Below are positions 22,615-46,880 of a stretch of DNA of 64,000 nt, piece by piece. Under the pieces are notes generated by a model. That model saw only the letters and a list, made by a program, of their open reading frames with translations. It made no database searches and had not been told where the DNA came from. Position numbers and translations under genes: made by a program. Every line of letters starts with the position of its first letter. Positions within the stretch are counted from its first letter, which is position 1. This stretch comes from Cupriavidus metallidurans CH34 (GTDB lineage: Bacteria; Pseudomonadota; Gammaproteobacteria; Burkholderiales; Burkholderiaceae). The stretch lies in assembly GCF_000196015.1 (NCBI RefSeq), contig NC_007974.2, positions 1 through 64,000 on the forward strand, read 5' to 3'.

Positions 22615-22726
22615 CGCCATCCAGGTCGCAGGCGCTCGAGGGGTTTGTGCGCCTGCCAACAGACGACGCGCCATACGTGCGCAACCATGACTGCACTTGG
22701 TTTCCCGCGAGGGCTTTGGGGCGGTC

Positions 22727-24133
22727 ATGGCGTCGGAATGGAATGTTGCCGCCGAGCGGCACTCTGCACTTCACTATCTCTATCGACTCGGTGATGCGGT
22801 ACTGATCGCGGTATGCGGCATCGCCATGGGCGCGCTGTATTTCCATGACGGCATCAGGAGCGCGGCACCCGTCAACGGGTTCCTGACGATGCTGTGCGCG
22901 CTCGGCGCGCTGCTGATCTTTCCTGCCTTCGGCATCTACGAATCATGGCGCGGCCGCAGTCGCGCCGTGCTGGGGTTGCGCATTGCCGCCGCATGGACCT
23001 TGGTGTTCATCTCCGGCCTGCTCGGTGCGTTCCTGATCCACCAGATCGGGGCGGTCTCACGCGTCTGGTCGATGGGCTGGTTCATTGGCACGGGCGTGAT
23101 GCTGGCGCTGTCGCGGGTCGTGATGTTCCGGATGCTGGCCAACGTGCGCCAGCAGGGCATCAACGCCAAGCGCGTGCTGATCTTCGGCTACGGCCCGCTG
23201 GGCCGCGAAATGTACGATCGCGTGCAACACTTCCGCGATGCCGGCTATCGCGTCGTGGGCGTGTATGACGAGGAGTCCGACGCGATTCCGTACGACGTGA
23301 CCCCGCTGCGCCAGATCGAGGAAGTCAGCGGCTTCGTGCGCGACCATGGCGTGCGCGAGATCTGGCTGACGCTGCCGATGGCCGCTTGCCGCGATCTGTC
23401 CGGCGTGGTGCGCCAGTTCCGCAATGAGATGATCGACATCCGCTGGGTGCCCGACGTGTCGTCCGTCGAGCTGCTGGGCCACCGCTTCAGCGAGTTCATG
23501 GGTCTGCCCGTCATCGACCTGAACAGTCCGCCCGTCTCGGGCATCACGGGCGTGGTCAAGGCCAGCTTCGATCGCGTGTTCTCGCTCGGTGTGCTGGTCT
23601 GCCTGAGCCCGTTGCTGTTGCTGATAGCCGCGATGGTCAAGCTGTCGTCGCCCGGTCCCGTGCTGTTCCGGCAGCAGCGCCTGGGCATCGACGGCCAGCC
23701 TTTCAACGTGTACAAGTTCCGCACCATGCGCCAGCACCAGGACGGCGGTGGCGTGACCCAGGCCGTGCGCGGTGATCCGCGCGTGACCCGCGTCGGCGCG
23801 TTCCTGCGCCGGACCAGCCTCGACGAGTTGCCGCAGTTCATCAACGTGCTGCGCGGCGAGATGTCAGTGGTCGGCCCGCGTCCGCACGCGATGGAGCATA
23901 ACGAGCTCTACAAGGAACTGATCGACCGCTACATGCTGCGCCACCGCGTGAAGCCCGGCATCACCGGCTGGGCCCAGATCAACGGTCTGCGTGGCCAGAC
24001 GGACACGGTCGAGAAGATGCGCAAGCGCATCGAGTTCGACATCTACTACATCCAGCACTGGTCGTTCCAGCTCGACCTTCGGATCATCCTGCGCACCGCG
24101 CTGCATGGCTGGACCGGCACCACGGCTTACTGA
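22727..24133 (+). CDS. wcaJ: Undecaprenyl-phosphate sugar phosphotransferase WcaJ
   Basis: The 468-residue polyprenyl glycosylphosphotransferase starts EPS repeat-unit synthesis by moving a sugar-1-phosphate, usually glucose, from UDP-sugar to undecaprenyl phosphate. N-terminal membrane helices (about residues 20-130) lead to a CoA-binding-like domain (RVLIFGYGPLGREMYDR) and the catalytic bacterial sugar transferase domain with KFRTMRQH, RRTSLDELPQF, VVGPRPHAMEHNE and KPGITGWAQINGLRGQTD. Length and motifs match WcaJ. The ATG at 22727 with GGGGCGG before it is preferred to an in-frame TTG ten codons upstream. The five-gene operon at 24259 follows after 125 bases. Confidence 0.93.
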   Translation: MASEWNVAAERHSALHYLYRLGDAVLIAVCGIAMGALYFHDGIRSAAPVNGFLTMLCALGALLIFPAFGIYESWRGRSRAVLGLRIAAAWTLVFISGLLGAFLIHQIGAVSRVWSMGWFIGTGVMLALSRVVMFRMLANVRQQGINAKRVLIFGYGPLGREMYDRVQHFRDAGYRVVGVYDEESDAIPYDVTPLRQIEEVSGFVRDHGVREIWLTLPMAACRDLSGVVRQFRNEMIDIRWVPDVSSVELLGHRFSEFMGLPVIDLNSPPVSGITGVVKASFDRVFSLGVLVCLSPLLLLIAAMVKLSSPGPVLFRQQRLGIDGQPFNVYKFRTMRQHQDGGGVTQAVRGDPRVTRVGAFLRRTSLDELPQFINVLRGEMSVVGPRPHAMEHNELYKELIDRYMLRHRVKPGITGWAQINGLRGQTDTVEKMRKRIEFDIYYIQHWSFQLDLRIILRTALHGWTGTTAY

Positions 24134-24258: not shown

Positions 24259-24510
24259 ATGAAAGCAACCATCCGCAATATTCTGGGCGAAGTGGCCCGG
24301 CTAGATGTACCGCTGGCCACCCTGGCTGACAACGACGATCTCTACGCGGCGGGACTCTCGTCCCTGGCCACCGTGCATGTGATGTTGGCGCTGGAAAACG
24401 CGTTCGATATCGAGATCCCGGATCAGATGCTGACGCGCCAGCTATTCCGCAGCGTTGACTCGCTGGCGGCCGCGGTGGAAGCCATTCGCCAGCAGCAGGA
24501 GGCAGCATGA
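24259..24510 (+). CDS. Acyl/aminoacyl carrier protein
   Basis: The 83-residue protein has the carrier-protein signature DDLYAAGLSSLATVHVML; Ser35 in GLSSL is the expected phosphopantetheine attachment site, with Ser in place of the usual Asp before it. Helix 3 region ENAFDIEIPDQML is typical. Carrier proteins of this kind stand beside seryl-tRNA-synthetase-like ligases that load them with glycine or alanine, and such a ligase is encoded two genes downstream at 25721. The stop overlaps the next gene by four bases (ATGA). A GGAG site precedes the ATG at 24259; a longer upstream frame is not supported. Confidence 0.9.
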   Translation: MKATIRNILGEVARLDVPLATLADNDDLYAAGLSSLATVHVMLALENAFDIEIPDQMLTRQLFRSVDSLAAAVEAIRQQQEAA

Positions 24511-25709
24511 ACACCGGAGCGAAGGTTACGCTGGCGCACGCCAACCCCGACGCTGGCGGCGCGATGGCCAGCGATGCATTGCTGGCCGCCGCGCGCGAGG
24601 CCGCAATGGTCGCGCAGCGCTTTGCCGACGCCGTGGACCAGGAAGCGCGTTTTCCGCACGAAGCGTTCGAAGTCCTGCGCGACCAGGGTCTGCTCGGCGC
24701 GATGGTGCCGGCCGTGCTCGGCGGCAGCGGCGCATCGCTGGCCACGGTGGCCGCGATCTGCAAGGTGCTGGGCGAGACCTGTGCGTCCACCGGCATGATC
24801 TATGCGATGCACCAGATCCAGGTGGCGTGCCTGCTCGATCACGGCACCGGCAGTCCGTGGCATCAGCACCTGCTGGCACGCATCGCCAGCGAGCAATTGC
24901 TGCTGGCGTCCGCCACGTCCGAAGAGGCGATCGGTGGCGCGCTGCGTAGCAGCGGCTGCGCCGTCAACGTGGATGGCGACCGCTTCCACCTGCTGAAGAT
25001 GGCGCCGACGATTTCCTATGGCGCCCACGCCGACGGCATCCTGATTACCGCGCGCCGCAATGCGGATGCCTCGCCGTCCGATCAGGTGCTGGTCTGCGCG
25101 CTGAAGTCCGACTACACGCTGCAAGGCCTGAATGCGTGGGACACGCTCGGCATGCGCGGCACCTGCAGCAATGGCTTCCGGCTGGAAGCCACCGGCCAGG
25201 TGGATCAGGTGCTGCCGGTGCCGTTCGGCGAGATCGCTGACGCCACCATGACACCGGTCTCCCACATTCTTTGGAGCTCGCTGTGGCTCGGCATCGCCAG
25301 CGATGCCGTATCGCGCGCCAAGACCTTCTTCCAGGGACAGGCACGCGCGCGTCCGGGCCAGTTGCCGCCGTCCGCATCGCGTGTGTCCGAAGCCGTCAGC
25401 CTGCTGCAGATGATGGAAGGCCGCGTGGATCTGGCGCTGGCGCATCAGCGCAGCCGCCATGCGGGCGCTTCGGTATCCGCCGCATTCGCGCTGGCGGCCG
25501 AGATGAACGGTCTGAAGACGGCGATGTCGACGATGGCACTGGAAGTCGTGCAGCAGGCGCTGCTGGTGTGCGGGATGGCGGGCTACAAGCATGGCACGCC
25601 ATTCAGCCTGGGACGCCACCTGCGCGATCTGTGGTCGGCGCCGCTGATGATCAACAACGATCGCATTCAGACCAATACAGCGAACCTGCTGCTGGCCGAT
25701 CGTTCCTGA
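24507..25709 (+). CDS. Acyl-CoA-dehydrogenase-like flavoprotein
   Basis: A 400-residue member of the acyl-CoA dehydrogenase fold: N-terminal helical domain with FEVLRDQGLLGAMVP and GGSGASL, a central beta domain (ISYGAHADGILITARR) and a C-terminal helical domain ending RDLWSAPLMINNDRIQTNT. The usual catalytic Glu of the IYEGTNEIQ segment is missing; LMINNDRIQ takes its place, as in the branch that includes flavin monooxygenases and carrier-protein-bound oxidases. In this operon its likely substrate is an aminoacyl or acyl group on the carrier protein encoded just before it, with which it overlaps by four bases. Whether it desaturates, oxidises or hydroxylates is not determinable from sequence. 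Confidence 0.88.
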   Translation: MNTGAKVTLAHANPDAGGAMASDALLAAAREAAMVAQRFADAVDQEARFPHEAFEVLRDQGLLGAMVPAVLGGSGASLATVAAICKVLGETCASTGMIYAMHQIQVACLLDHGTGSPWHQHLLARIASEQLLLASATSEEAIGGALRSSGCAVNVDGDRFHLLKMAPTISYGAHADGILITARRNADASPSDQVLVCALKSDYTLQGLNAWDTLGMRGTCSNGFRLEATGQVDQVLPVPFGEIADATMTPVSHILWSSLWLGIASDAVSRAKTFFQGQARARPGQLPPSASRVSEAVSLLQMMEGRVDLALAHQRSRHAGASVSAAFALAAEMNGLKTAMSTMALEVVQQALLVCGMAGYKHGTPFSLGRHLRDLWSAPLMINNDRIQTNTANLLLADRS

Positions 25710-25720
25710 AGGAGGCATCC

Positions 25721-26686
25721 ATGGATGCACACACTCTTACCGAGGCACGTCCGGCAGGTGGCGCGGACCCAATGGCCGCGCAACCGCCAACGTTCCTCGA
25801 ATCGCTGCTGGCAGCGGGGCTGCTGATCCAGACTGGCGTGCGTGGCCTCTACGGCCGCAGTGCCGTGTTCGAAGGCATCGCCGACGGCCTGAATGCCGCG
25901 TTCACGCGGATCGGCGCGGACCAGAACGCCGAAGTGCTGCGCTTCCCGCCAGCGATCGGCAAGGATGATTTCGAAACCAGCGAGTACCTCAAGAGCTTTC
26001 CGCAGCTTGCCGGCACGATCCACAGCTTCTGCGGCGACGATCGCGGGCATCGACAACTGCTGGCGCGGCTCGAGGACAAGCAGGACTGGACCGATCAGCA
26101 GCAGTTCACGGGCGTGGTGATGACGCCCGCCGCCTGCTACCCGATCTATCCCGTCATCGGCAAGCGCGGCCCGCTGCCCGCCGAGGGCAAGATCGTCGAC
26201 GTGATGTCGTACTGCTATCGGCACGAACCGTCGCTGGAGCCTACCCGGATGCAGTTATTCCGGCAGCGCGAGTACGTTTGCCTGGGGTCCCCCGAGCGGA
26301 TCGTGGCGTTCCGCGAGTTGTGGATGGAGCGTGGGCTGGCGTTCGGTCGGGCCCTGCAGCTTCCGGTGGAAGTCGACGTGGCCAATGACCCGTTCTTCGG
26401 GCGCGGCGGCAAGATCGTGGCCGACAGCCAGCGCGAGCTGAAACTCAAGTTCGAACTGCTGATCCCGGTGAACGACGGCGCGCCGCCGACGGCCTGCATG
26501 AGCTTCAATTACCACATGGATCACTTCGGCGCGCTCTGGCATATCGGACTGCACGACGGTGGCGTCGCCCACACGGGTTGCGTCGGTTTCGGTATCGAAC
26601 GGCTGGTGCTGGCGCTCCTGAAGCACCATGGACTTGACCCAGCCAGGTGGCCTCAGGCAGTAAGGGAAACGCTGGGAGGCATCTAA
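25721..26686 (+). CDS. Amino acid:[carrier protein] ligase (seryl-tRNA-synthetase-like)
   Basis: The 321-residue protein is a class II aminoacyl-tRNA-synthetase core without a tRNA-binding arm. Motif 2 is YCYRHEPSLEPTRM (Arg167, Glu169) and motif 3 is GCVGFGIERLVLAL (Arg294). Cys139 in TPAACYPIYP and Cys287 in HTGCVGFG match zinc-ligand positions known from amino acid:[carrier protein] ligases of Bradyrhizobium and Agrobacterium, which adenylate glycine or alanine and pass it to a carrier-protein phosphopantetheine rather than to tRNA. The operon contains the carrier protein, which supports this activity strongly. The start at 25721 follows AAGGAGG 11 bases after the flavoprotein gene; an upstream extension of the frame is not used. 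Confidence 0.92.
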   Translation: MDAHTLTEARPAGGADPMAAQPPTFLESLLAAGLLIQTGVRGLYGRSAVFEGIADGLNAAFTRIGADQNAEVLRFPPAIGKDDFETSEYLKSFPQLAGTIHSFCGDDRGHRQLLARLEDKQDWTDQQQFTGVVMTPAACYPIYPVIGKRGPLPAEGKIVDVMSYCYRHEPSLEPTRMQLFRQREYVCLGSPERIVAFRELWMERGLAFGRALQLPVEVDVANDPFFGRGGKIVADSQRELKLKFELLIPVNDGAPPTACMSFNYHMDHFGALWHIGLHDGGVAHTGCVGFGIERLVLALLKHHGLDPARWPQAVRETLGGI

Positions 26687-27670
26687 ATGTACGGTGATGG
26701 CAAGGTGCGCACGCGCGGCGGAGCCTATGCGCTGCACGGGGGTAACCCCGTGTGGTCGCATGCCAACCGCCACATCGATCTCTGGATCGAGTTGTTGCAT
26801 GGATGGGAGCTGGAGCCCATCGCCGCATTGCCATTTACGGTCACCCTCGATTTCGAGGGTGACCAGTTCACATCGCTGAATATTCCGTCAGCGGACCTCG
26901 AGCTGCTCTACGGCATCGTCAAGGACGAATTGTCGACCTACGGCAGACTCGAAACGCATGTGGCCGCGCAGACCAATCGCGGCAACGTGGTGCTGCTCGA
27001 GGTCGATAACTATCAACTGCCGCAGTCGCCCGGCGCATATCGTCGGCAGCACGCGCGGTCCTGCATTGCGATCGACGTGCTGGTGCCCGAGGCCACGGCC
27101 GTGGGCTACTACCATCACGACGGCTATCACACCGCGAGCGGCGACGACTACGTGTCGATCTTTCGCAGCCTTGATGGTGAGTCTTCCTGGGGCGCCGCGT
27201 CGTTTCCGCAGGCGGAGGTTGTGCGCCGCCGCTTTGCCGCGCAGGCGGAGGATGCCTTGCTGCGGGCGTCGATGGACCTGCTGCGCAGCCATCTGGCCCG
27301 CCGTCCGCGCCAGAATCCGATCAAGGCTTTCCGCGAGGCATTTCCGGCACACCTCGAGCAACTGATGTCGCGCGGCGAGCCCAACTTCCAGATCTACGCC
27401 GCGAGCGTGCTGCGCCAGCTCGGCGCCAATTTCGAGCTGATGGGCCGCTACGTGCGCTGGCTCGTGATGAACGGAAAGGTGGTGCCAGATACGGTGGCCG
27501 AAGCCTGCTACACGATGGCGTCGGAAGCTATGGTGATGCAGTTCCGCCTGATGCGCGCCGTGATCAGCCACAAGCCCGACGGATGCCAGGATTGCCTGGC
27601 ACAGCTCGAGGCAGCTTACCAGGGCACCGTGCCGGCATTGGCCGCGTGCTTCGGGGAGACCGTCTCATGA
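26687..27670 (+). CDS. DUF1839 family protein, copy 1 (putative Cys replaced)
   Basis: This 327-residue cytoplasmic-looking protein belongs to DUF1839, a family usually found beside amino acid:[carrier protein] ligases. It starts directly after the ligase stop codon and overlaps the GH2 gene by four bases. Conserved blocks are HIDLWIELLHGW, LDFEGDQFTSLNIP, LLEVDNYQLP and YRRQHARSCIAID. By position the family appears to have a Cys-His-Asp set like papain-type acyltransferases; the His122 and Asp130 positions are kept, but the residue matching Cys47 of the second copy (31445-32497) is Arg28. It may therefore be a non-catalytic or differently acting version. The acyltransferase idea is my inference, not established knowledge. 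Confidence 0.85.
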   Translation: MYGDGKVRTRGGAYALHGGNPVWSHANRHIDLWIELLHGWELEPIAALPFTVTLDFEGDQFTSLNIPSADLELLYGIVKDELSTYGRLETHVAAQTNRGNVVLLEVDNYQLPQSPGAYRRQHARSCIAIDVLVPEATAVGYYHHDGYHTASGDDYVSIFRSLDGESSWGAASFPQAEVVRRRFAAQAEDALLRASMDLLRSHLARRPRQNPIKAFREAFPAHLEQLMSRGEPNFQIYAASVLRQLGANFELMGRYVRWLVMNGKVVPDTVAEACYTMASEAMVMQFRLMRAVISHKPDGCQDCLAQLEAAYQGTVPALAACFGETVS

Positions 27671-30237
27671 CTGCGCGCGATCCGGAGCCGGCTCTGCTGC
27701 CGGTATTGCGCCCGGGTGTAGCCGTGGGCGATGCGCGGCTTGAAGGCGACTGGACCCTGCTGGAAACCTTCGCGAACGCGGTCGCGCATCCGGGCGAGCT
27801 CGATGATGGCGGTCACTGGCTGCCGGCACCGGTGCCGGGTACCGTCGCGAGCGCCTTGCGTGCCGCAGGCCGCTGGGATGAGGCTGCGCCGCCGCCACTG
27901 CATCAGCATGACTACTGGTACAAGCTTCGATTCCAGGGCGACGGACGCCGGCTGCTGCGCTTCAATGGTCTGGCGACATTGGCCGAGGTCTGGTTCAACG
28001 GCACGAAGGTGCTGACCGTGCGGCACATGTTCACCGCCCACCAGGTGGAAGTGGAACTGGCCGGCGACAACGTGCTGCACCTTTGCTTCCGCGCGATGCA
28101 CCCGTGGCTGCGCACGCAGCGCGGGCCGGTGCGTTGGAAGCCGCGCATGATCGTGCCGCCGACGCTGCGTGCGGTACGCACCACGCTGCTTGGTCATATG
28201 CCCGGCTGGTGCCCGCCCGTTCATGCGGTGGGGCCATGGCGCGACATCGAACTGCTCGACCCGATGGGCGCCGATGTCACACACGGCGTGCGCGCCGAGT
28301 TGTCGAGTCATCTGGATGGTGATGACGGCGTCGTGGTGCTTCAGTTGCACTTTCCGGGTCCGGCGCCAGAGCAGGGAACGTTCGCGGCCATCGGCCCCGA
28401 CCACGCAGTGTGGCAAGGCGAACTGCGCCGCGTCGGCGGGCATACGCTTGCGGGCACGCTGCGCGTGGCGCAGGCGCAGCGCTGGTGGCCGCATACGCAT
28501 GGTGAACCCGCCCTGTACCGCGTCGAGGCGAGTATCGGCGCGCTTGGGATCGCGTGTGGGCATACTGGCTTCCGCACGATTACCGAGGACCGCTCCGGCG
28601 ACGACGGCGCGTTCGCGCTGCGCGTCAATGGCGAGCGCGTGTTCTGCCGTGGCGCCTGTGTGTCGAGTCACGATCTTCCGGGGCTGGCGGATACGGACGC
28701 GTCCGTGGCACGCTGGCTGCAACTCGCGCGCGATGCCGGGGCCAATATGGTTCGCGTCAGTGGCGTCACCTGCTATCCGGGAGAGGCGTTCTATCGCCAG
28801 TGCGATGCGCTCGGCCTGATGGTCTGGCAGGACTTCATGTTCGCCAACTTCGACTATGGCAGCGAGTCCAGCGCCAGCCCGGCGCTGATGGCCGATGCCG
28901 CGGGCGAAGTGGCGCAGTGGCTGACGTCCACGCGGGCGCACGCCAGTCTGGCGGTGCTGTGCGGCGGCAGCGAGGCGGAACAGCAGGCCGCGATGATGGG
29001 AACGCCGCGCAACGTGTGGCGCCAGCCCTTGTTCGACGAACTGATTCCGTCGCTCGTACGCGAGCATCGACCCGACGTGATCTACGTGCGTAATTCGCCG
29101 AGCGAGGGCGCGTGGCCGTTCCAGCCCGATACGGGTGTCAGTCACTACTACGGCGTGGGCGCCTATCAGCGCCCGTTGTCCGATGCGCGGATGGCCAACG
29201 TCCGTTTCACCTCGGAATGCCTGGCCTTTGCGAACGTGCCGTGCGGGCGCACACTTTCCGAGGCGGGCCTGTTCCAACCGCTGCATGATCCCCGCTGGAA
29301 GGCACGTGTACCGCGCGACGCGGGCGCGGCGTGGGACTTCGAGGACATCCGCGATTTCTATCTGCGCGATCTGTTCGATGTCGATCCACCCCGGCTGCGC
29401 TACGAGCAACCGGAACGATACCTGGCGCTGTCGCGCGCGGTAGTGGCCGAGATCATGACGGAGGTCTTCGGCGAATGGCGCCGTGCGGGGTCCACGTGCC
29501 AGGGCGGACTGGTGTGGCAGTTGCAGGATCTGGTGCCAGGCGCCGGATGGGGCATCGTCGATGCGCGCGCGAGGCCGAAGTCCGCATGGCATGCGTTGCG
29601 CCAGGTATGGCAGCCGCTGCAGGTCATCCTGACGGATGAAGGGTTGAATGGTCTGCACGCGCACGTGATCAACGAATCCGCCACGCCTCGCACCGTATGT
29701 TTGACACTGCGCTGCCTGCGCGATGGCGAGGCGGTGGCGGCACGGGCGGAGCAAACGCTCACATTGGCACCACGCGAGACACGCAGGCTGGGCGCGGCGG
29801 AGATGTTCGATCATTTCTTCGATTTCACCTACGCCTACCGGTTTGGCCCGCCTGCGCACGACGTGGTCATTGCCACGCTACACACAATGGATGAGGACAA
29901 CGGGTTGCTCAATCAGCCACCCGGTCCGCCGCTCAGTCAGTCGGTGTACCTCCCCGATCGCCGCGCCGCCGCGCTGCGCGAGCCGGGGCTGCAGGCCAGC
30001 GTGGCGCGCGAAGGCGACCAATGGTGGCTCACGGTGGGCACGCGGCGCTTCGCGCGATGGGTTCATATCGTGGACCATGCCATGCAGCCTGAGACCGACT
30101 GGTTCCACCTTGGCCCGGGTGAAACGCGGCGCATCCGCCTGATGCATGACGCTGGCGTCACCAGCGGCGCCAGCGCCATCCCTTCGGGCGAAGTTTCGGC
30201 ACTCAATGCTTCCCGCCCGGTCAGCTACGACGGCTGA
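27667..30237 (+). CDS. Glycoside hydrolase family 2 protein (beta-mannosidase-like)
   Basis: The 856-residue protein has the GH2 layout: an N-terminal sugar-binding domain with LPAPVPGTVASAL and RFNGLATLAEVWFNG, immunoglobulin-like domains, then a TIM barrel with FRTITEDRS, RGACVSSHDLPG and DAGANMVRVSGV. The likely acid-base is Glu436 in LCGGSEAEQQ and the nucleophile Glu517 in FTSECLAF. This resembles beta-mannosidase relatives. There is no signal peptide, so it should act in the cytoplasm, which is odd for an EPS hydrolase. The ATGA overlap with the DUF1839 gene makes it the last gene of the carrier-protein operon. It may act on a glycoside intermediate or, with catalytic changes, as a transferase. 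Confidence 0.85.
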   Translation: MTARDPEPALLPVLRPGVAVGDARLEGDWTLLETFANAVAHPGELDDGGHWLPAPVPGTVASALRAAGRWDEAAPPPLHQHDYWYKLRFQGDGRRLLRFNGLATLAEVWFNGTKVLTVRHMFTAHQVEVELAGDNVLHLCFRAMHPWLRTQRGPVRWKPRMIVPPTLRAVRTTLLGHMPGWCPPVHAVGPWRDIELLDPMGADVTHGVRAELSSHLDGDDGVVVLQLHFPGPAPEQGTFAAIGPDHAVWQGELRRVGGHTLAGTLRVAQAQRWWPHTHGEPALYRVEASIGALGIACGHTGFRTITEDRSGDDGAFALRVNGERVFCRGACVSSHDLPGLADTDASVARWLQLARDAGANMVRVSGVTCYPGEAFYRQCDALGLMVWQDFMFANFDYGSESSASPALMADAAGEVAQWLTSTRAHASLAVLCGGSEAEQQAAMMGTPRNVWRQPLFDELIPSLVREHRPDVIYVRNSPSEGAWPFQPDTGVSHYYGVGAYQRPLSDARMANVRFTSECLAFANVPCGRTLSEAGLFQPLHDPRWKARVPRDAGAAWDFEDIRDFYLRDLFDVDPPRLRYEQPERYLALSRAVVAEIMTEVFGEWRRAGSTCQGGLVWQLQDLVPGAGWGIVDARARPKSAWHALRQVWQPLQVILTDEGLNGLHAHVINESATPRTVCLTLRCLRDGEAVAARAEQTLTLAPRETRRLGAAEMFDHFFDFTYAYRFGPPAHDVVIATLHTMDEDNGLLNQPPGPPLSQSVYLPDRRAAALREPGLQASVAREGDQWWLTVGTRRFARWVHIVDHAMQPETDWFHLGPGETRRIRLMHDAGVTSGASAIPSGEVSALNASRPVSYDG

Positions 30238-30635: not shown

Positions 30636-31364
30636 ATGATCACGCATCGGTCGGACTTGCATGTCAATCACTTGCTCAACGCATTGCCGCGCCATGAATG
30701 GGAGGCGTTGTCGAGGCACTTCGAGCTGGTTCGCCTGCGTGCCGGCGAACTGCTGACCGACTCGGGTCAGCGAATCGTCCACGTCTATTTTCCGACCACG
30801 TCGGTGGTCTCGCTGCTGTCACTGCTGGAAGACGGCGCTACCGTCGAATTCGCGGCCGTCGGCAACGAGGGGCTGGTGGGCATTCCAGTGGTGACCGGTG
30901 GCGACACGATGCCGAGTCGCGTGGAAGTGCGCAGCCCGGGTTTCGCGTACCGGATTCCGGCCCGTGTGCTGCGTTCGGAACTGGGCCAGCTGCCCGCGCT
31001 GCAGCGCGTGACGCTGCTCTATGTGCAGGCTGTGTTGACGCAGATTGCGCAGACCGCAGCGTGCAACCGCCACCACTCGCTCAACAAGCAGCTTTGCCGC
31101 TGGTTGCTGCTGGCCATCGACCGCATGAGTACCAATGAACTGGTGATCACGCAGCAGGTCATCGCCAACATGCTCGGCGTGCGCCGCGAAGGTGTGACCG
31201 AAGCCGCCGGCAAGCTCGAGGACCTTGGACTGATCCACCATAGCCGCGGCCATATCACCGTGCTGGACCGCTGCGGCCTGGAGAAGCACTCATGCGAGTG
31301 CTACAAGCTGGTCAAGCGCGAGTACGACCGCCTGCTGCCCGCGCTGGCCGACGTGCACGCCTGA
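30636..31364 (+). CDS. Crp/Fnr-family transcription regulator
   Basis: A 242-residue protein with an N-terminal cyclic-nucleotide-binding-type beta barrel (about residues 15-140; AGELLTDSGQRIVHVYFP, VGNEGLVGIPV) and a C-terminal winged helix with TQQVIANMLGVRREGVTEAAGKL. It lacks the N-terminal Cys cluster of Fnr, and the phosphate-binding cassette of cAMP-dependent Crp is not evident, so the signal is unknown. Its AAGGAGGAATTAGAAATG start is one of the best ribosome sites in the window. It sits within the EPS island between the carrier-protein operon and manC, so control of EPS genes is plausible. A terminator follows at 31397-31431. Confidence 0.9.
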   Translation: MITHRSDLHVNHLLNALPRHEWEALSRHFELVRLRAGELLTDSGQRIVHVYFPTTSVVSLLSLLEDGATVEFAAVGNEGLVGIPVVTGGDTMPSRVEVRSPGFAYRIPARVLRSELGQLPALQRVTLLYVQAVLTQIAQTAACNRHHSLNKQLCRWLLLAIDRMSTNELVITQQVIANMLGVRREGVTEAAGKLEDLGLIHHSRGHITVLDRCGLEKHSCECYKLVKREYDRLLPALADVHA

Positions 31365-31444: not shown

Positions 31445-32497
31445 TCAGGAATGCGCCGGATCGATGCTGCCGAACGATTGCAGCAGCCCGTCGATGACCT
31501 CCGAGTGGGCGGCCTCCAGCGTGTCCAGTGTCTCCGCGCACAGGTCTGGGCGGCCACGCGCCACGGCGCGCGCGAGCCGGAACTGCAATACCTTGCACTC
31601 CGACGCGATCGTCGCCGCGCCACGGATCGCCGATGCCGGCACGCGATAGCCGTGCTCGCCGAGCCAGGTCAGGCAGTGGCCCAGCATCTCGAAGTTCGCG
31701 CCGAGTTGGCGCGGCAGGTTGAATCCATAGTGATGAAAATAAGCATCGCCACGGGCCAACACGTTGCCGACCTGATCGCCGAACGCCTCGCGCCAGCGCG
31801 ATACGGGGTTGTGCGCCGGACGCCGGCCCAGATGCCGGCGCATCTGCACGGCCACGGCATTCGCCAACGCCGCGCCCTGCAGCGGCGTCCGCACGCGCTT
31901 GGCGCATTCGGCGTACGGAAACAGCACGTCCCCGTTGTCGCGCAGGGCAGGATCGAGCCGCAGCAACCCGCGATAGTCCTCGCCCTCGGCGGTGTAGTAG
32001 CCCACGCTGTGGTAGTACGAGAGCCGCTGGGCCGCCGTGTCGATGCGGTCGACGGCGATCGTGGTCTTCACGTGCCCGCGACGGTACGCCGTGGCGCGGG
32101 TATCGGGCAGGTAATAGCTGTCGACTTCGACCAGCACGGTATGGCCGCGTCCGACCTGTTCGGCGACGTGTGCCTCCAGCGTGTCGTAGACGGCCATCTC
32201 CTGCACGACCGTGCCGTAAAGCTGCTCGATATCGGCCTGCGGATATTTGAAGAACGTGAAGTGGTCGCCTTCGAAGTCCTGGGTAACCGTGAACGCCAGC
32301 GCGGCGCGCGGGTCCAGTCCCCAGCCGTAGAGCAGTTCGATCCACAGGTCCATGTAGCAGTTGGTTTCCTGCCAGATCGCGTCTTCGCCGTGCAGGCCGC
32401 CCGGCCGCGTGTTCGCGGGGGCGATAGCTGCCGCAGAGTCCGCTCCGCCGCCGCACCCCGCGAGCGTCCCCAGGACAGTTTCAGTACCGCGCTCCAT
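31445..32497 (-). CDS. DUF1839 family protein, copy 2 (with intact Cys)
   Basis: The 350-residue paralogue of the protein at 26687-27670; shared blocks include DLWIELLYGWGLDP, TQDFEGDHFTFFKYP, VLVEVDSYYLPDT and YRRGHVKTTIAVDRID. It carries Cys47 in ETNCYMDLW at the start of a predicted helix, His142 in GHVKTTIAVD and Asp150 eight residues later, a spacing that would fit a Cys-His-Asp acyltransferase or peptidase site. The first 35 residues are Gly/Ala-rich and not conserved. It is transcribed alone and leftward, divergent from manC. The ATG at 32497 follows GCGGAG; upstream starts are not supported. As the copy with the full residue set it is the better candidate for catalysis. Confidence 0.85.
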   Translation of the reverse strand: MERGTETVLGTLAGCGGGADSAAAIAPANTRPGGLHGEDAIWQETNCYMDLWIELLYGWGLDPRAALAFTVTQDFEGDHFTFFKYPQADIEQLYGTVVQEMAVYDTLEAHVAEQVGRGHTVLVEVDSYYLPDTRATAYRRGHVKTTIAVDRIDTAAQRLSYYHSVGYYTAEGEDYRGLLRLDPALRDNGDVLFPYAECAKRVRTPLQGAALANAVAVQMRRHLGRRPAHNPVSRWREAFGDQVGNVLARGDAYFHHYGFNLPRQLGANFEMLGHCLTWLGEHGYRVPASAIRGAATIASECKVLQFRLARAVARGRPDLCAETLDTLEAAHSEVIDGLLQSFGSIDPAHS

Positions 32498-32769: not shown

Positions 32770-34368
32770 ATGATGAGAGTGCGAAGCCGGGAGAGGAAGA
32801 TCCTGCCACCTGTCATGGTGCAGGCGCAGGTAGAGGCGCCAGCGGTGTTGGCGCCGGGACGGGCAACCTCCATGCCTGTGATCCAGCCTGTGAAGCGGCC
32901 AGTGATTCAGCCAGTCATCCTTGCGGGCGGCGCCGGCACGCGGCTCTGGCCGCTGTCGCGTGAGCAGTATCCCAAACAGCTGCTCAACCTGGTGGCCAAC
33001 GATACGTTGCTGGAAGCCACGGCGGCCCGCCTGGAAGGCGTTGCCGCGCGCACTGGCCGTCCGGCCGGTGTCGAGGCGCCGCAGATCGTCGTATGCGGCG
33101 AAGAGCATCGCTTCATGGTCGCCGACATGCTCAAGCGCAAGGGCAAGCGCGCGCGTGTCGTTTCGGAGCCGTGCGGCCGCAATACCGCGCCCGCGCTGAC
33201 CATGGCTGCGCTGCACGCGATGGCTTCGGCTGGCGAAGGTGGCGATGCCGTGCTGGTGGCCACGCCGGCTGATCACAGCGTGACCGATAGCGATGCCTTC
33301 CGTGATGCCATTGCCGCCGCTGTACTGCACGCGGAGCGCGGCGCGATCGTCACGCTGGGCGTGCGTCCCACCGCGCCGGAAACAGGCTTCGGCTACATCC
33401 GCGCCGCCGTGCCGGTGCCGCCGGGCGGGTTCCTGATCGAGCGGTTCGTCGAGAAGCCACACCTGGAACTTGCGCAGCACTACGTCGACTCGGGCGAGTA
33501 CTGGTGGAACTGCGGCATCTTTGTCGTGCTGGCATCGGTATGGCTCAAGGCCGTGATGCAGCTCCAGCCAGAGATGCACGCCCGTTGCTGCGCGGCCTAC
33601 GAGACGGGCCAGCCCAGTGAAAGCGGCAAGGATGATGTATTCCGGATCGGACAAGAGGCGTTCGACACTTGCCCGTCGGATTCGATCGACTACGCGGTGA
33701 TGGAAAAGCTCGACGGGCTGCGCGGTATCCCCGGCATGCTCGTGCCGATGGATGCCGGATGGTCGGACGTGGGCTCGTGGGCGGCCATCTGGGATATCGC
33801 CACGAAGGACAACGCCGGCAATGCTGGCCGTGGCCGCGTGTTGTTCGACGGCGCGAGTTCGTGCCTGGCCCATTCGGAGGGCCGGCTGATCGCGTGCGTG
33901 GGCGTGCAGGACGTGGTGGTGGTGGAAACCGCCGATGCGGTGCTTGTGGTCGACAAGCACCACGTGCAGGACGTCAAGAACGTGGTGCAGCGGCTGCGCC
34001 AGGAGCATGGCGCGGAGATCGTCAATCACCGCAAGGTACACCGGCCGTGGGGATGCTACGACTCCATCGACCATGGCGACCGCTTCCAGGTCAAGCGGAT
34101 CGTCGTCGAGCCCGGCGCGAGCCTTTCCCTGCAGATGCACTACCACCGCGCGGAGCATTGGGTCGTCGTGCGCGGCACCGCGCGGGTGACCTGCGGCGAG
34201 ACCACCAGCATTCTTACCGAAAACCAGTCGACCTATATCCCGATCGGCACGCTGCATCGACTCGAGAATCCCGGCAAGACGCCGCTGGAAATCATCGAGG
34301 TGCAGTCGGGCGCGTATCTGGGGGAGGACGACATCGTCAGAGTCGAGGACAACTACGGACGCAAGTAG
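32770..34368 (+). CDS. manC: Mannose-1-phosphate guanylyltransferase / mannose-6-phosphate isomerase
   Basis: The 532-residue bifunctional enzyme makes GDP-mannose, the precursor of GDP-fucose made by Gmd and Fcl elsewhere in this island. The nucleotidyltransferase domain opens with ILAGGAGTRLWPLSREQYPKQ and includes FVEKP and the DAGWSDVGSW segment; the C-terminal cupin (about residues 415-530) has GASLSLQMHYHRAEHW and IPIGTLHRLEN with metal-binding His residues of type II phosphomannose isomerases. An N-terminal extension of about 48 residues is unusual and contains a VIQPV repeat. The first ATG at 32770 follows AGGCGGGGG; a start at 32872 would remove most of the extension. A phosphomannomutase gene is not in the window. 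Confidence 0.93.
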   Translation: MMRVRSRERKILPPVMVQAQVEAPAVLAPGRATSMPVIQPVKRPVIQPVILAGGAGTRLWPLSREQYPKQLLNLVANDTLLEATAARLEGVAARTGRPAGVEAPQIVVCGEEHRFMVADMLKRKGKRARVVSEPCGRNTAPALTMAALHAMASAGEGGDAVLVATPADHSVTDSDAFRDAIAAAVLHAERGAIVTLGVRPTAPETGFGYIRAAVPVPPGGFLIERFVEKPHLELAQHYVDSGEYWWNCGIFVVLASVWLKAVMQLQPEMHARCCAAYETGQPSESGKDDVFRIGQEAFDTCPSDSIDYAVMEKLDGLRGIPGMLVPMDAGWSDVGSWAAIWDIATKDNAGNAGRGRVLFDGASSCLAHSEGRLIACVGVQDVVVVETADAVLVVDKHHVQDVKNVVQRLRQEHGAEIVNHRKVHRPWGCYDSIDHGDRFQVKRIVVEPGASLSLQMHYHRAEHWVVVRGTARVTCGETTSILTENQSTYIPIGTLHRLENPGKTPLEIIEVQSGAYLGEDDIVRVEDNYGRK

Positions 34369-34429: not shown

Positions 34430-36772
34430 GTGAGCACCATGTCATCTGCCGGCGCGATGCCGGCGCCAGGGAGCAGCGCCACGCGCAAGGGGGGGCGCCA
34501 TTTGCGCGCATGGATGGACCATGCTGGCTGGATTGTCGCGGCTGGCGTCATTGGTGCCACGATTGCCGCGATGATCGGCATTTCCCGTCCCAATCTCTAC
34601 GATGCCCACACGCTCGTGCAGATCTATCAGAAGGGTGACGGCTCGGGCACCACGCAGCGCACCGAACCGTTCGACGTGGGGATGCTGCGCAGCCGCGCCG
34701 TGGTCGGCCCGGTGGTGGAGCGCCTGCGCCTGTACATCTCCGTCGAGCCGCTGCGCGCGCCATTGCTGGGCGGCGTGGCCGCGCACTTCGCGCAGGCGGG
34801 CAAGCTCCGGGGACCGTGGCCGGAGCGGCTCGGTTACGCGTGGGGCGGCGAGCGGGTCGACATCCGCACCCTGGACGTGCCGGAGCGCCTGCTCAACGTG
34901 CCAATGACGCTCGAAGTGTTGCCTGGGGATGCCTATCGCCTGACGCTCGACGGCGAGCTCGTGACCGATGGCAAGATCGGCAGCCGTGTCGAAGAGAATG
35001 GCGTGTCCATCCTGGTGTCGCGCATCGACGCGCGCGCGGGCACGCGATTCACTGTCACACGGCACGACACGGCGCAGACGATCGATACCGTGGCGCGTGA
35101 ACTGCGCATCGGCAGCGATGGCAGCGATACCAGCACGGTACGCATCGCGTGGCAGAGCAGTGACCGCACCGCGGTAGCCGCGCTGATCAACGGCATCGCC
35201 GATTCCTACATTACCGGACAGGCCGAGACGCGCCGCGACGAGGCAGCCTCCACGCTGGCCTTCCTGAGCGGCGAACTGCCGCGTGTCAAGGACGAGCTCG
35301 AACGCGCCGAGGCGGCGCTCACGCGCTACCGCTCGCGCACGGGATCGATGCAGCCGAGCCAGGACGCCCAGTCGTACCTGAACAGCAGCATCGATTACCA
35401 GAAGCAGATCGCCCAGCTCAAGCTCGACCGCACCAAGCTGCTGCAGCGCTTTACGGAAGAGTCGAACGAAGTACGAACGATGGACAGCCAGATCCAGCAG
35501 CTCACGCGGGACCGCAAGGAGCTGGATACCCGGATGCAGACGCTGTCGGTCTCCGAGCGCGAGTCCGTGGCCCTGACGCGTGACGTCAAGGTGGCCGAGG
35601 ACATGTACATGTCCTTGCGCAACCGGCTCGAACAGCTCTCGCTGGCCAAGCTCGACAGCACCCGGCAGACCCGCGTGGTCGACATCGCGCTGACACCGGT
35701 CTCGCCAATCGGCGTGGGCACCGCGCCGCTCACGATGGGCGGCGGGTTGCTGGGCATCTGCCTGGCGATGTGCGTGGTCTCGGTGCGCCAGCGCATGAAG
35801 CCGGCCGTGGCCACCGCCAATGATGCCGAGGAGACGCTTGGCCTGGCCATGCTCGGGGATGTCGCGTACAGCCGCGAACAGGTGGAACTGGAGCGGCTGC
35901 TGACGGCGAAGGACCAGGATATCGGGACAATGCTGGCGCTGCAGGCGCCGGAGCCCGGGCGCCAGGTCGCGCAGGCGTTGCCGCATGGGGCCGGCGATGC
36001 CGAGCCGGGTCATTGGGGTTTGCATGATCAATACCTGCTGGCCCGCAACGCGCCGCATTCGATGGCCGTGGAGGGCCTGCGCAGCGTGCGCGCGGCACTG
36101 CATTTCCTGCGTCGCGAGGGCAGCAACAAGGTGGTGGCCGTGACCAGCCCCACCGCAGGGGCGGGCAAGACGTTTGTCTCGGTCAACCTGGCTGTGCTGT
36201 TCGCCGAAGCGGGCCAGCGCGTGTTGCTCGTCGATGCCGACCTGCGCCGAGGGCGGGTGTCGAGCTGGTTCGGCCAGCCGGCGGGTCCGGGTATGGCCGA
36301 AGTGCTGGCCGGCCGCGCCACGCTGGTCGACGCGGCACGGCCAACCGTCGTCAATGGGCTGTCGATCCTGCCTGCCGGCGCGCCGCCTACGAACCCGTCG
36401 GAACTGCTTATGCGTCCTGCCTTTGCGGATTGCCTGCGTGCTGGTGCGGAGCGCTTCGACCTCGTCCTGATCGATACCCCGCCCGTTCTGGCGGTGGCGG
36501 ATGCCATGCTCGTCGCCAATGTCGTGGGCGCGACGTTGCTCGTGCTGCGGGCCGATTCGACGCTGCCGTCGCAGGTCGAGGAAACCATCAAGCGCCTGAC
36601 CCGCGCCGGGGCCAGTCTCTCGGGCGGCATTCTCAACGGCGTGATGCCGAAGCGCAGCAACCGCGTCGGCTTCGGCACCATGAATCCCTATCTCGGCATG
36701 CCCACGGTCATGCCAGCGGTCCGGCAGATTGCCCACGTCCCTGCCGTGGAAGACAAGACAACAACGAGCTGA
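34430..36772 (+). CDS. Wzc-like polysaccharide co-polymerase/kinase without tyrosine tail
   Basis: This 780-residue protein has the Wzc plan: a Wzz-type N-terminal membrane domain (transmembrane segment about 34-54), a long coiled-coil periplasmic region (about 270-420), a second membrane segment near 440 and a cytoplasmic BY-kinase-like domain with Walker A TAGAGKT (about 573), Walker A-prime LLVDADLRRG and Walker B VLIDTPPV. The C-terminal Tyr cluster that BY-kinases phosphorylate is absent; only one Tyr (NPYLG) is found in the tail. It may therefore work in chain-length control without the usual phosphorylation cycle, or pair with the second Wzc at 42711-44960. The GTG start at 34430 follows AGGGGAG, 61 bases after manC. 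Confidence 0.88.
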   Translation: MSTMSSAGAMPAPGSSATRKGGRHLRAWMDHAGWIVAAGVIGATIAAMIGISRPNLYDAHTLVQIYQKGDGSGTTQRTEPFDVGMLRSRAVVGPVVERLRLYISVEPLRAPLLGGVAAHFAQAGKLRGPWPERLGYAWGGERVDIRTLDVPERLLNVPMTLEVLPGDAYRLTLDGELVTDGKIGSRVEENGVSILVSRIDARAGTRFTVTRHDTAQTIDTVARELRIGSDGSDTSTVRIAWQSSDRTAVAALINGIADSYITGQAETRRDEAASTLAFLSGELPRVKDELERAEAALTRYRSRTGSMQPSQDAQSYLNSSIDYQKQIAQLKLDRTKLLQRFTEESNEVRTMDSQIQQLTRDRKELDTRMQTLSVSERESVALTRDVKVAEDMYMSLRNRLEQLSLAKLDSTRQTRVVDIALTPVSPIGVGTAPLTMGGGLLGICLAMCVVSVRQRMKPAVATANDAEETLGLAMLGDVAYSREQVELERLLTAKDQDIGTMLALQAPEPGRQVAQALPHGAGDAEPGHWGLHDQYLLARNAPHSMAVEGLRSVRAALHFLRREGSNKVVAVTSPTAGAGKTFVSVNLAVLFAEAGQRVLLVDADLRRGRVSSWFGQPAGPGMAEVLAGRATLVDAARPTVVNGLSILPAGAPPTNPSELLMRPAFADCLRAGAERFDLVLIDTPPVLAVADAMLVANVVGATLLVLRADSTLPSQVEETIKRLTRAGASLSGGILNGVMPKRSNRVGFGTMNPYLGMPTVMPAVRQIAHVPAVEDKTTTS

Positions 36773-36879: not shown

Positions 36880-38727
36880 ATGAGACGGGTCGTGTTCGAA
36901 GGCTGCGCGGGGTGGTTGCATGAGGCTGGGGGCGACACGGGTGTGGTGATGTGCGCGCCGCAGGGCCACGAGATGCTGTGGTCCCATCGCGCGTGGCGGC
37001 ATCTGGCCGATGCGCTGGCGATGTCTGGTGTGCCGGTGCTGCGCTTCGACTACCGTGGCACAGGAGATTCCGCCGATCTGGAGCCCGGCGCGGACATGTT
37101 CGGCGGCGCGCTGGCGGATATCGCGGCGGCCGTCCTGGCGCTACGCCGCGAGACGCACGTCACCCGGGTGGTGCTGTGCGGGCTTCGCCTGGGGGCATCG
37201 CTCGCCGCGCTTGCCGCCGCGCGCGGGCGGGAAGTCAGCGGCGTGGTCATGCTGGCCCCCGTCGTCAACGGCCGCTTGTATCTGCGGGAGCTTCGCGCGT
37301 TGCATGCGGGCTGGCGCAACAGCATGATTCCCGAACTCGAGGTACCGCCCACGCCTGCCGGCGAGCAGGACGTGCTCAGCTTCCGCTTGTCCGCCGCGAC
37401 CATCGCCGCCATCCAGGCGATGCGGCTCGATGACGTCGTGCCCGCCCGTCGCGTGTTGCTGCTCGATGCATGGCCGGATGCGGCATCGCCAGTTGCGGCG
37501 ATGGCCCTGAAACTTGGCGAGGCTGGCGTTGACGTCGACATGGCGCCGTTCGCCGAGTATCCGGAGATGATGCGTTCGACCGAGTTCGCGGATGTGCCCG
37601 TGGAGGCCTGGAAGCACGTAGCCGACTGGGTGAAAGCAGGCACGGCCCGCCAGCCTGAAGTGTCGGCCAGCGCGGAGGCCGCACCTGACAGTGCCAACAG
37701 CGCCAACAGCGCTGGCGACGCGCTGGTGGGCGAGGGCATGGACGGTGTCGTGGAACACCCGGTGTGGCTGGACGAAGCACGGATGTTCGGCATCCTCTGC
37801 GTGCCCGCAGAGGCCAATGCCAACGCCAGACAGGCAAACACGGTCGTGATCTTTCCGAACACCGGCGGCAATCATCACATCGGAGACGGCCGCATGTTCG
37901 TGGACGTCTCGCGGCAACTGGCACGCGCAGGCACGGCGGCACTGCGGCTGGACGTATCGGCCCTGGGCGACAGCCCTGCCCCGGCGTGCAAGATGAGCGT
38001 GTCGGCGATCTATTCGATGAAGCCCCGCGCGGACCTTGCTGCCGCCGTGGATTGGGCACGCGCGCGCGGCTTTGGCGACGTCGTGGTTGCCGGCGTTTGC
38101 TCCGGCGCATTCATGGGCCTGTATGCCGCGCTGAGCAACCCGGGCGTCAGCGGGCTGCTGCTGGTGAACCTGGTGAAGTTTCGCTGGGACGAGGCCGATG
38201 ATGCGGCGGTGGGCGACCACCTGCGTTCGATGCGTGTCTACCTGGCCGCGGCACGGCAATGGGAAACCTGGCAACGGCTGTTCCGTGGCGAGATCAACGC
38301 GCGCCGCCTCTTGTCGGCAACGTTGCGCAGGGTACGGCAGCGTGTGCACGACCGCGTGTCCGCTGTCGGCGGGCGGATGCGGCGTAACGACGTGCAGCAG
38401 ACCATGCCCGAGTTCGCCGCTGCCGCCGTGCGGGAACTGGACCGGCGTGGCGTGCCGACGATGTTCCTGTATGGCGCCACGGACGTGGGTTTGCATGAAC
38501 TGCGACTGGGCCTGGGCAAGCACCTGGAGGCTATCCAGGGATTGCGCAATGTCCAGTTCCGCACCTTGCCGCTGCTCGATCATTCACTGTTCCTCGACGC
38601 GAGCCGACAGGCCTTCGCCGAGCAACTGATCGAGCATCTCCGGTGGATGTCGATGGACAGCTCCGAGACGTCGGATACGCCCGAGGCAGCCATATCGTTC
38701 ACGCCAGTGACCCAGCGCGCGGCGTAG
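36880..38727 (+). CDS. Tandem alpha/beta-hydrolase protein with altered nucleophile sites
   Basis: The 615-residue protein contains two alpha/beta-hydrolase domains (about 1-260 and 300-600) joined by an Ala/Ser-rich linker. The first has FDYRGTGDSADL, and its nucleophile elbow reads CGLRLGAS, with Arg where Ser is expected. The second has LDVSALGDSP and an elbow AGVCSGAF, with Cys in place of Ser. It resembles hydrolases found with exosortase and EPS clusters. The Cys version could still act as a thioesterase or acyltransferase; the first domain looks inactive. The start at 36880 follows GGGAGGA. It lies between the Wzc-like gene and the beta-helix gene in the same direction. Its substrate is unknown; EPS acyl editing is a guess from context. 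Confidence 0.82.
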   Translation: MRRVVFEGCAGWLHEAGGDTGVVMCAPQGHEMLWSHRAWRHLADALAMSGVPVLRFDYRGTGDSADLEPGADMFGGALADIAAAVLALRRETHVTRVVLCGLRLGASLAALAAARGREVSGVVMLAPVVNGRLYLRELRALHAGWRNSMIPELEVPPTPAGEQDVLSFRLSAATIAAIQAMRLDDVVPARRVLLLDAWPDAASPVAAMALKLGEAGVDVDMAPFAEYPEMMRSTEFADVPVEAWKHVADWVKAGTARQPEVSASAEAAPDSANSANSAGDALVGEGMDGVVEHPVWLDEARMFGILCVPAEANANARQANTVVIFPNTGGNHHIGDGRMFVDVSRQLARAGTAALRLDVSALGDSPAPACKMSVSAIYSMKPRADLAAAVDWARARGFGDVVVAGVCSGAFMGLYAALSNPGVSGLLLVNLVKFRWDEADDAAVGDHLRSMRVYLAAARQWETWQRLFRGEINARRLLSATLRRVRQRVHDRVSAVGGRMRRNDVQQTMPEFAAAAVRELDRRGVPTMFLYGATDVGLHELRLGLGKHLEAIQGLRNVQFRTLPLLDHSLFLDASRQAFAEQLIEHLRWMSMDSSETSDTPEAAISFTPVTQRAA

Positions 38728-44960: not shown

Positions 44961-45451
44961 GCCCCTCCGTGGCGGTGTGCCGGTTCTGCCGCATGAATTC
45001 TTGCCGACCAGGATTCAACCCCCATCTTGATCAGCCCAAGCGCGATGACGAACATGCTCATCGATCCGCTGAACGGATCTGGCACGTCGGTTTGTTCCTG
45101 TTCGCACAGGCGATAGGTCTTGCCGCGCGCCTGGGGGTACATGTCCTCCAGCGCGTCGCGTTGCTCTTCATCCATGACCAGCACGAGGTCCGCGCCGGCG
45201 ACGAGCGCGGCGCTCACGGCGCGCGCGCGGTGGTCGGTCAGATCGCTGCCCTCCACCGCCAGCAGGCGCACCGCGCGCGGATCGGCCGCGGCGCCTACCG
45301 GGGGTGCCAGGCCCGCCGACAGCACGCGGCACTGCGGCAGCGCGCGGCCAAGCAGTGCCGCCGCCATCGGGCTGCGGCACCGGTTGCCGATACACACCAC
45401 GAGGATCGACCGGATGAATGCGGCTTCCTTTCCCTCTCTCATGACTTCCAT
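44957..45451 (-). CDS. wzb: Low-molecular-weight protein-tyrosine phosphatase Wzb
   Basis: The 164-residue phosphatase dephosphorylates Wzc. The CX5R active site is CIGNRCRSP (Cys20, Arg26), preceded by the hydrophobic strand RSILVV, and the general acid is Asp125 in DVPDPFSG. Length matches the family with an N-terminal extension of about ten residues. It lies three bases after the wza stop codon and overlaps wzc by four bases, the classical order. The exact start is uncertain: neither ATG at 45451 nor the one three codons later has a strong ribosome-binding site, which suggests translation coupled to wza. Confidence 0.94.
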   Translation of the reverse strand: MEVMREGKEAAFIRSILVVCIGNRCRSPMAAALLGRALPQCRVLSAGLAPPVGAAADPRAVRLLAVEGSDLTDHRARAVSAALVAGADLVLVMDEEQRDALEDMYPQARGKTYRLCEQEQTDVPDPFSGSMSMFVIALGLIKMGVESWSARIHAAEPAHRHGGA

Positions 45452-45454
45452 GTC

Positions 45455-46618: not shown

Positions 46619-46880
46619 GGCATCCTCTCCGCAGTCGTTGAAACGAGCGCGGACATCGCAGTCCCGCGCATTTACGTGCATCGTAGGAGCCTGCAATGTG
46701 CGCTATCGGTGCGTTTCACCACATTGACGTCCGAAGGACTGCCCCAATGGCCCTTGTCGCGCCGATGTGTTGCGCGGCGCACGGAAGGCCCCTTGACGTG
46801 CCGCGTATCGTTCGCACCACTGGCCGCGCATCCGGCCCGTCGGCGCATTCTTGCCGCACCAAAAACAAGGAGGGGGAAGC

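Follow-up and report, generated by a model that had tools for sequence, protein, structure and literature searches.

Cupriavidus metallidurans is a metal-tolerant soil bacterium. In the first 64,000 nucleotides of contig NC_007974.2 of strain CH34 (hereafter the window), five genes lie on the forward strand inside a surface-polysaccharide gene island, in the order carrier protein (CP), flavoprotein, amino acid:[carrier protein] ligase, DUF1839 protein and GH2 glycosidase. The run begins downstream of wcaJ, whose product initiates exopolysaccharide (EPS) synthesis; wcaJ ends at 24133, the CP gene starts at 24259, and the successive spacings from wcaJ through GH2 are 125, -4, 11, 0 and -4 bases. 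The first-pass annotation, made from the sequence alone, had described five co-directional genes with overlaps or gaps of 0-11 bases starting 125 bases past wcaJ, and our analysis confirms both the coordinates and the families. A second DUF1839 gene lies farther downstream on the opposite strand, and it is this gene, rather than its counterpart in the operon, that emerges as the candidate transferase of the pathway.

The CP gene (24259..24510, +) encodes 83 residues with matches to PF00550 and NF005480 (127 bits; cut-off 72), and the second serine of its GLSSL motif is the expected phosphopantetheine site, being a serine in 118 of 120 carrier matches. The ligase (25721..26686, +) resembles seryl-tRNA synthetases, matches NF005479 (509 bits; cut-off 357) and aligns with the Bll0957 structures 4h2w (E 3e-85) and 3mey (E 3e-83); it is 100% identical to its counterpart in C. 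metallidurans FDAARGOS_675. A Cys/Glu/Cys set, which we take to be the zinc ligands, is kept in all 119 ligase matches. In 2010 Mocibob reportedly described ligases of this kind from Bradyrhizobium (Bll0957) and from Agrobacterium. The window ligase shares with them the family, an adjacent CP and the conserved Cys/Glu/Cys, and its locus differs in adding an EPS island, a DUF1839 protein lacking the cysteine of its family, and a second DUF1839 copy.

The flavoprotein (24507..25709, +) matches PF02771 in its N-terminal part only. Its model (predicted local distance difference test, pLDDT, 87.7) has the acyl-CoA-dehydrogenase fold, with short-chain acyl-CoA dehydrogenase (SCAD), nitrososynthase and DszC nearest in the PDB, and it lacks the catalytic glutamate of an acyl-CoA dehydrogenase enzyme. 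At the usual place of that residue, presumably the YEGT region, stands [NS]ND ([NS]NDR) in 25 of 25 aligned sequences; ND is found in 117 of 118 matches, the remaining one having a gap (position judged by eye). Since dehydrogenases, DszC and nitrososynthase are all near and [NS]ND replaces the glutamate, the structure does not pick between dehydrogenase and oxygenase. The GH2 protein (27667..30237, +) is beta-mannosidase-like (PF22666, PF17753; 6bye/6byc, E ~1e-34) and contains both expected catalytic glutamates at places taken from the 6bye alignment, residues kept in 112 and 114 of 116 matches; inspection by eye found no N-terminal signal in the window protein. Short GH2 copies at loci L091 (4920-7037) and L090 (3844-5994), beside DUF1839 with no ligase core near, show a gap where the acid/base glutamate is expected. 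The module copy of GH2 in L109 likewise has no glutamate at the acid/base place (it is out of frame in a merged stretch), and that of L157 is cut by a contig end.

To follow the five genes across genomes we used 40 genome stretches, a set of 80 ligase loci and four plasmid loci. The 80-locus set is the best 80 of 581 relatives and hence leans to Burkholderiales (68 loci, with 11 from alphaproteobacteria and one from a myxobacterium). Module parts were located by tblastn, and counts were taken from it because gene calls are in the wrong frame at several loci (L072 and L078-L084 among them), where tblastn recovers the module as well. The full five-gene set is present in 76 of the 80 loci (66/68 Burkholderiales, 9/11 alphaproteobacteria, 1/1 myxobacterium), a recurrence by which a chance arrangement can be dismissed, and 13 of 13 further loci outside the host's family, selected via their DUF1839, also carry every module part. 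The five genes are thus an old module that spans Cupriavidus to alphaproteobacteria. An alpha/beta hydrolase of ~600 residues lies directly 3' of GH2 in Azospirillum B510, A. brasilense Sp7 and Mycetohabitans rhizoxinica, and its window counterpart is the gene at 36880-38727. Genome sampling at three taxonomic levels gave DUF1839 matches in 111 of 249 genomes of the family, 3 of 274 of the class and 16 of 398 of the phylum; the samples overlap and count the host genome. At least two DUF1839 genes occur in 24 of 30 same-genus genomes, among the matches listed. At L060, L061, L065 and L067, all from one alphaproteobacterial family, counterparts of the EF-P, EpmA-like and EpmB-like genes of L060 lie upstream of the module, with a ThiC gene intervening in L067. 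At L088, on a contig end of genome G439, DUF1839, WcaJ and PAP2 are doubled in mirror image, probably an assembly artefact.

Both DUF1839 genes of the window match PF08893 far above its cut-off of 22.5 bits: the operon copy (26687..27670, +) with 456 bits and the second copy (31445..32497, -) with 489. Passages of a 2023 study (PMC10318531) assign to DUF1839 a papain-like C(T/S)H triad and suggest a cell-wall or glycan role. The canonical motif ETNCYVDLW reads HANRHIDLW in the operon copy, where the presumed catalytic cysteine is an arginine and the serine and histidine are retained, and ETNCYMDLW in the second copy, whose sequence predicts a complete triad of Cys47, Thr145 and His163. Our survey comprised 148 DUF1839 matches in 125 loci, and the cysteine was tabulated for 105 loci; the table leaves out L063, L066, L083, L085, L086, L088, L090, L091, L092, L093 and L109, which have no DUF1839 directly after the ligase by the distance rule (in L063 and L066 the DUF1839 gene overlaps the ligase by a few bases and retains the cysteine). 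With identical operon copies removed, 16 of 17 two-copy loci pair an operon copy without the cysteine with a second copy that has it, L106 being the exception with the cysteine in both. The cysteine is retained in 87 of 88 single-copy loci, the exception, L100, lying on a contig that ends 4.9 kb past the ligase. Counting duplicates, 117 of the 119 ligase loci have a cysteine-bearing DUF1839, and the two exceptions are L100 and L153. The DUF1839 gene adjoining the ligase core in L085, L091 and L109 is of the second, cysteine-bearing type, on the opposite strand behind GH2; L091 has an additional copy, with the cysteine changed to serine, ~8 kb upstream. A further locus, the G260 ligase without DUF1839, lies at a contig edge and is uninformative.

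Both copies are under purifying selection. Nei-Gojobori estimates of the ratio of nonsynonymous to synonymous substitution (dN/dS), from 15 related loci each (105 pairs for the operon copy), have medians of 0.154 for the operon DUF1839, 0.223 for the second DUF1839 and 0.151 for the ligase, and the value for the operon copy rejects the idea that it is a decaying pseudogene. In the tree the second copies are monophyletic (support 1.0) and lie next to copies from Paraburkholderia and Caballeronia (0.983), separate from the operon copies, so that a recent duplication in place is not favored; transfer or an older duplication would be the alternatives. As the cysteine-less operon copies all belong to a single Cupriavidus lineage and its near kin, they represent one or few loss events.

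An AlphaFold2 model of the second copy (pLDDT 88.4) matches CcbD, CtaG and AziU3/U2 over 271-293 residues, most of its length, at 9-12% identity. PDB entries hold CcbD structures with a carrier domain and a thiosugar, and the titles of CcbD and CtaG mutants name a cysteine; DUF1839 differs from these enzymes in that the histidine and Thr/Ser places are swapped, as described in passages of PMC10318531. No sequence relative was found when a DUF1839 profile was searched against the PDB, where the sole match (E 0.69) was to another protein and was rejected. By its modeled fold, DUF1839 belongs with cysteine enzymes that depend on a carrier protein. The first-pass annotation had proposed that the operon DUF1839 transfers an aminoacyl group; the fold suits such a role, and because the operon copy lacks the cysteine, the second copy, which lies outside the coordinates considered there, is the likely transferase. 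One could instead suppose that the cysteine-less operon protein is an enzyme of other chemistry and that the second copy serves a separate pathway. A subunit of the AziU3/U2 complex, which we take to perform ring chemistry, has the DUF1839 fold, and such a supposition would also accommodate the purifying selection on the operon copy and the persistence of DUF1839 in genomes without a ligase match. We nevertheless find it improbable, given the near-universal cysteine of the single-copy loci and the cysteine-bearing second type beside the core in L085, L091 and L109.

The genes around the module are those of EPS synthesis. The wcaJ gene (22697..24133, +; alternatively it may start at 22727) encodes an undecaprenyl-phosphate glucose phosphotransferase (TIGR03023, 549 bits, cut-off 411; PF02397, PF13727). 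Downstream of GH2 follow a Crp/Fnr-type regulator that is the probable counterpart of BerA (30636..31364, +; PF13545), the second DUF1839 gene, the mannose-1-phosphate guanylyltransferase gene manC (32770..34368, +, or possibly from 32815; TIGR01479, 610 bits, cut-off 373), a Wzc-like tyrosine autokinase and chain-length protein (34430..36772, +; TIGR01007, 144 bits, cut-off 108; NF008568, 385 bits, below its cut-off of 1068) and a two-domain alpha/beta hydrolase (36880..38727, +; PF12146, PF01738). The two halves of this hydrolase match TIGR03100 and TIGR03101, both below cut-off, families named after exosortase A systems; in passages of PMC3584217, TIGR03100 is also the family given for Bcam1334 of the bep cluster. 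Another Wzc-like gene, a low-molecular-weight phosphotyrosine phosphatase gene and Wza occupy 42711-46696 (-), on the strand opposite to the first Wzc. A sigma-54 promoter pattern occurs 16 times in the window against 16.3 expected, and so gives no signal.

We scored as EPS markers any WcaJ, Wza, Wzc, ManC, Wzy or Wzz match above 150 bits within ~11 kb. Such markers stand near 62 of the 68 Burkholderiales loci, which are kindred, so that the counts are not independent. The host genome has two PF02563 sites and four TIGR03025 sites (two of the four above cut-off), which fall in three regions, and by a rough estimate from these two marker families about 1-2% of random genome positions would lie near one of them. 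In Burkholderia cenocepacia (locus L178) the gene order is WcaJ, Crp, Crp, CP, flavoprotein, ligase, DUF1839, GH2, sigma-54 activator, c17 and ManC. Published anchors for the exopolysaccharide Bep of this species are ManC (Bcam1340), Bcam1341, BerB (Bcam1342) and BerA (Bcam1349), according to passages of PMC3584217 and PMC5552954. By gene order, the L178 module sits between the genes at the places of BerB and BerA, the cyclic di-GMP (c-di-GMP) regulators of Bep, and by counting genes, with numbering carried over from another strain, it would correspond to Bcam1343-1347. The window has WcaJ, ManC and a BerA-like Crp as neighbors in common with the Bep locus; its Crp protein shares 52.8% identity (229 aligned residues) with the one at BerA's place and 38.8% with the second Crp, and no BerB match was found near the window module. 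The Bep accounts in the available passages of PMC3584217 and PMC5552954 do not treat the module genes, term searches of PMC9684580 gave nothing, and our literature search found no paper naming Bcam1343-1348.

The placement beside Bep bears on the bond that the module would form. Passages of PMC7084887 give the Bep repeat of strain H111 as [3)-Gal-(1-3)-Glc-(1-3)-Gal-(1-3)-Man-(1-], from material extracted in 0.3 M NaOH with spectra recorded in 0.3 M NaOD. Esters would be lost in 0.3 M NaOH, so that this structure would not show them, and amides would probably survive; as the structure contains no amino sugar, a CcbD-like amide on Bep is unlikely.

The module might instead couple an amino acid, by an amide bond, to an amino sugar in lipopolysaccharide (LPS) or another surface glycan, and not to the EPS of this island. 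The CcbD acceptor, presumably an amino sugar, would suit this, and the PDB title of a CcbD structure names a thiosugar. The absence of amino sugars from published Bep and a prediction in print since 2010 (PMC2922099) point the same way. We think it unlikely all the same, since the Burkholderiales modules are surrounded by EPS markers, a marker set that does not include LPS genes.

Our best explanation, a tentative one that is slightly likelier to be wrong than right, is a cytoplasmic aminoacyl-CP line that hands an amino acid to an EPS precursor or repeat unit. The ligase would adenylate a small amino acid, by analogy glycine or alanine, and, as its family suggests, load it onto the phosphopantetheine arm of the CP. 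The carrier-bound aminoacyl group may then be oxidized by the flavoprotein, probably in an oxygenase-like way rather than as by a classical dehydrogenase. To judge from its fold, the second-copy DUF1839 protein (31445-32497, -) could accept the acyl group on its cysteine and pass it to a sugar in the manner of CcbD, and the cysteine-less operon DUF1839 would act as a conserved non-catalytic partner or scaffold. The acceptor in Burkholderiales would probably be the EPS of the surrounding BerA/Bep-type island, at the stage of a precursor or repeat unit, with an ester linkage. In the weakest step, GH2 and the two-domain hydrolase may process the sugar conjugate.

Several observations weigh against this explanation. 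EPS markers are near 1 of 11 alphaproteobacterial loci and 0 of 1 myxobacterial loci (1/12 outside Burkholderiales) and near 2 of the 13 DUF1839-selected loci outside the host's family (L068 and L069). The marker queries are mostly from Burkholderiaceae, so distant EPS genes may be missed; the Wzz query was taken from L068 and L069, themselves the two positives, and L068 has Wzz and GNVR domains. The first-pass annotation had asked whether the set recurs beside EPS genes and had counted recurrence mostly away from polysaccharide genes against its own reading; the set does recur beside them within Burkholderiales, and outside that order the contrary pattern is partly what we find. Among ten genomes checked, five of the host's genus keep DUF1839 without a ligase match, with the cysteine in four and an alanine in one. 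In a metagenome-assembled genome of Acidisphaera, the ligase of L153 is followed by 10 kb free of DUF1839 and GH2 and has no CP or flavoprotein match around it either; the same genome holds a full module at L146. The identity of DUF1839 to CcbD is 11-12%, with no sequence relative in the PDB profile search, and Bep as given in passages of PMC7084887 consists of Gal, Glc, Gal and Man without an amino sugar. Finally, plasmid p-LAD4 of Priestia aryabhattai (L182, 866-14689) carries acpS, CP, flavoprotein, ligase, exporter, ATP-grasp, thioesterase, alanine permease and alanine racemase genes, with no DUF1839 or GH2 within the stretch; its core is 47% (CP), 38% (flavoprotein) and 45% (ligase) identical to that of the window.

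With a D-Ala-D-Ala ligase gene ~4 kb upstream of the core, the Priestia locus resembles a natural-product locus whose host protects itself from an alanine analogue, and we read it as a core that makes an oxidized aminoacyl-CP with exchangeable off-loading enzymes. It thereby raises the possibility, a rather doubtful one in our view, that the module yields a small diffusible aminoacyl-sugar or oxidized amino acid (a signal, siderophore-like compound or antimetabolite) that is co-regulated with EPS and unattached to it. A plasmid of Streptomyces sp. NBC_01431 (L184) fits the same possibility at one locus, having a distant ligase-like gene (31%) with a carrier, diiron oxygenase, nitronate monooxygenase, phosphopantetheinyl transferase and permease, as does the scarcity of EPS markers in alphaproteobacteria. 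Such a product is at odds with the EPS markers of the Burkholderiales loci, with the presence of DUF1839 and GH2 in 76 of 80 loci, and with the annotated subset of clusters, among which no transporter was seen as a constant neighbor.

Amino-acid tailoring of an EPS, which the first-pass annotation had put forward as new, is in print since 2010, and its claim to novelty therefore fails. The note in proof in PMC2922099 predicts ligation of an amino acid onto a sugar of the cell surface by a gene set that is the same as here: a ligase, an acyl carrier protein, a redox enzyme, the conserved open reading frame Atu2574, taken to be DUF1839, and a glycosidase. The note differs in proposing an amide on an amino sugar, and it is silent on the fold match, the cysteine loss, the second copy and the Bep locus. 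A link between DUF1839 and cell-wall glycan is likewise already present in passages of PMC10318531. The first-pass annotation also missed the second DUF1839 gene (31445-32497), the BerA-like Crp gene (30636-31364) and the two-domain hydrolase gene (36880-38727), and taken as a whole its interpretation is partly supported. New here are the fold match, the pairing of a cysteine-less with a cysteine-bearing DUF1839, and the placement of the module at the Bep locus, none of which our literature search found reported earlier.

What amino acid:[carrier protein] ligases make in the cell has, to our knowledge, been an unanswered question since 2010. For the missing transfer step, the fold match now offers a concrete enzyme class and the second DUF1839 copy a named candidate gene. 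The Bep link supplies a polymer on which to test the proposal and a mode of extraction, neutral and not alkaline. In its most specific form, which we regard as a long shot, a c-di-GMP-controlled biofilm EPS would bear an alkali-labile, oxidized aminoacyl ester, the Cupriavidus transferase would be a pair of an active and a cysteine-less DUF1839 protein, and the tag would have been missed through work-up in NaOH and NaOD.

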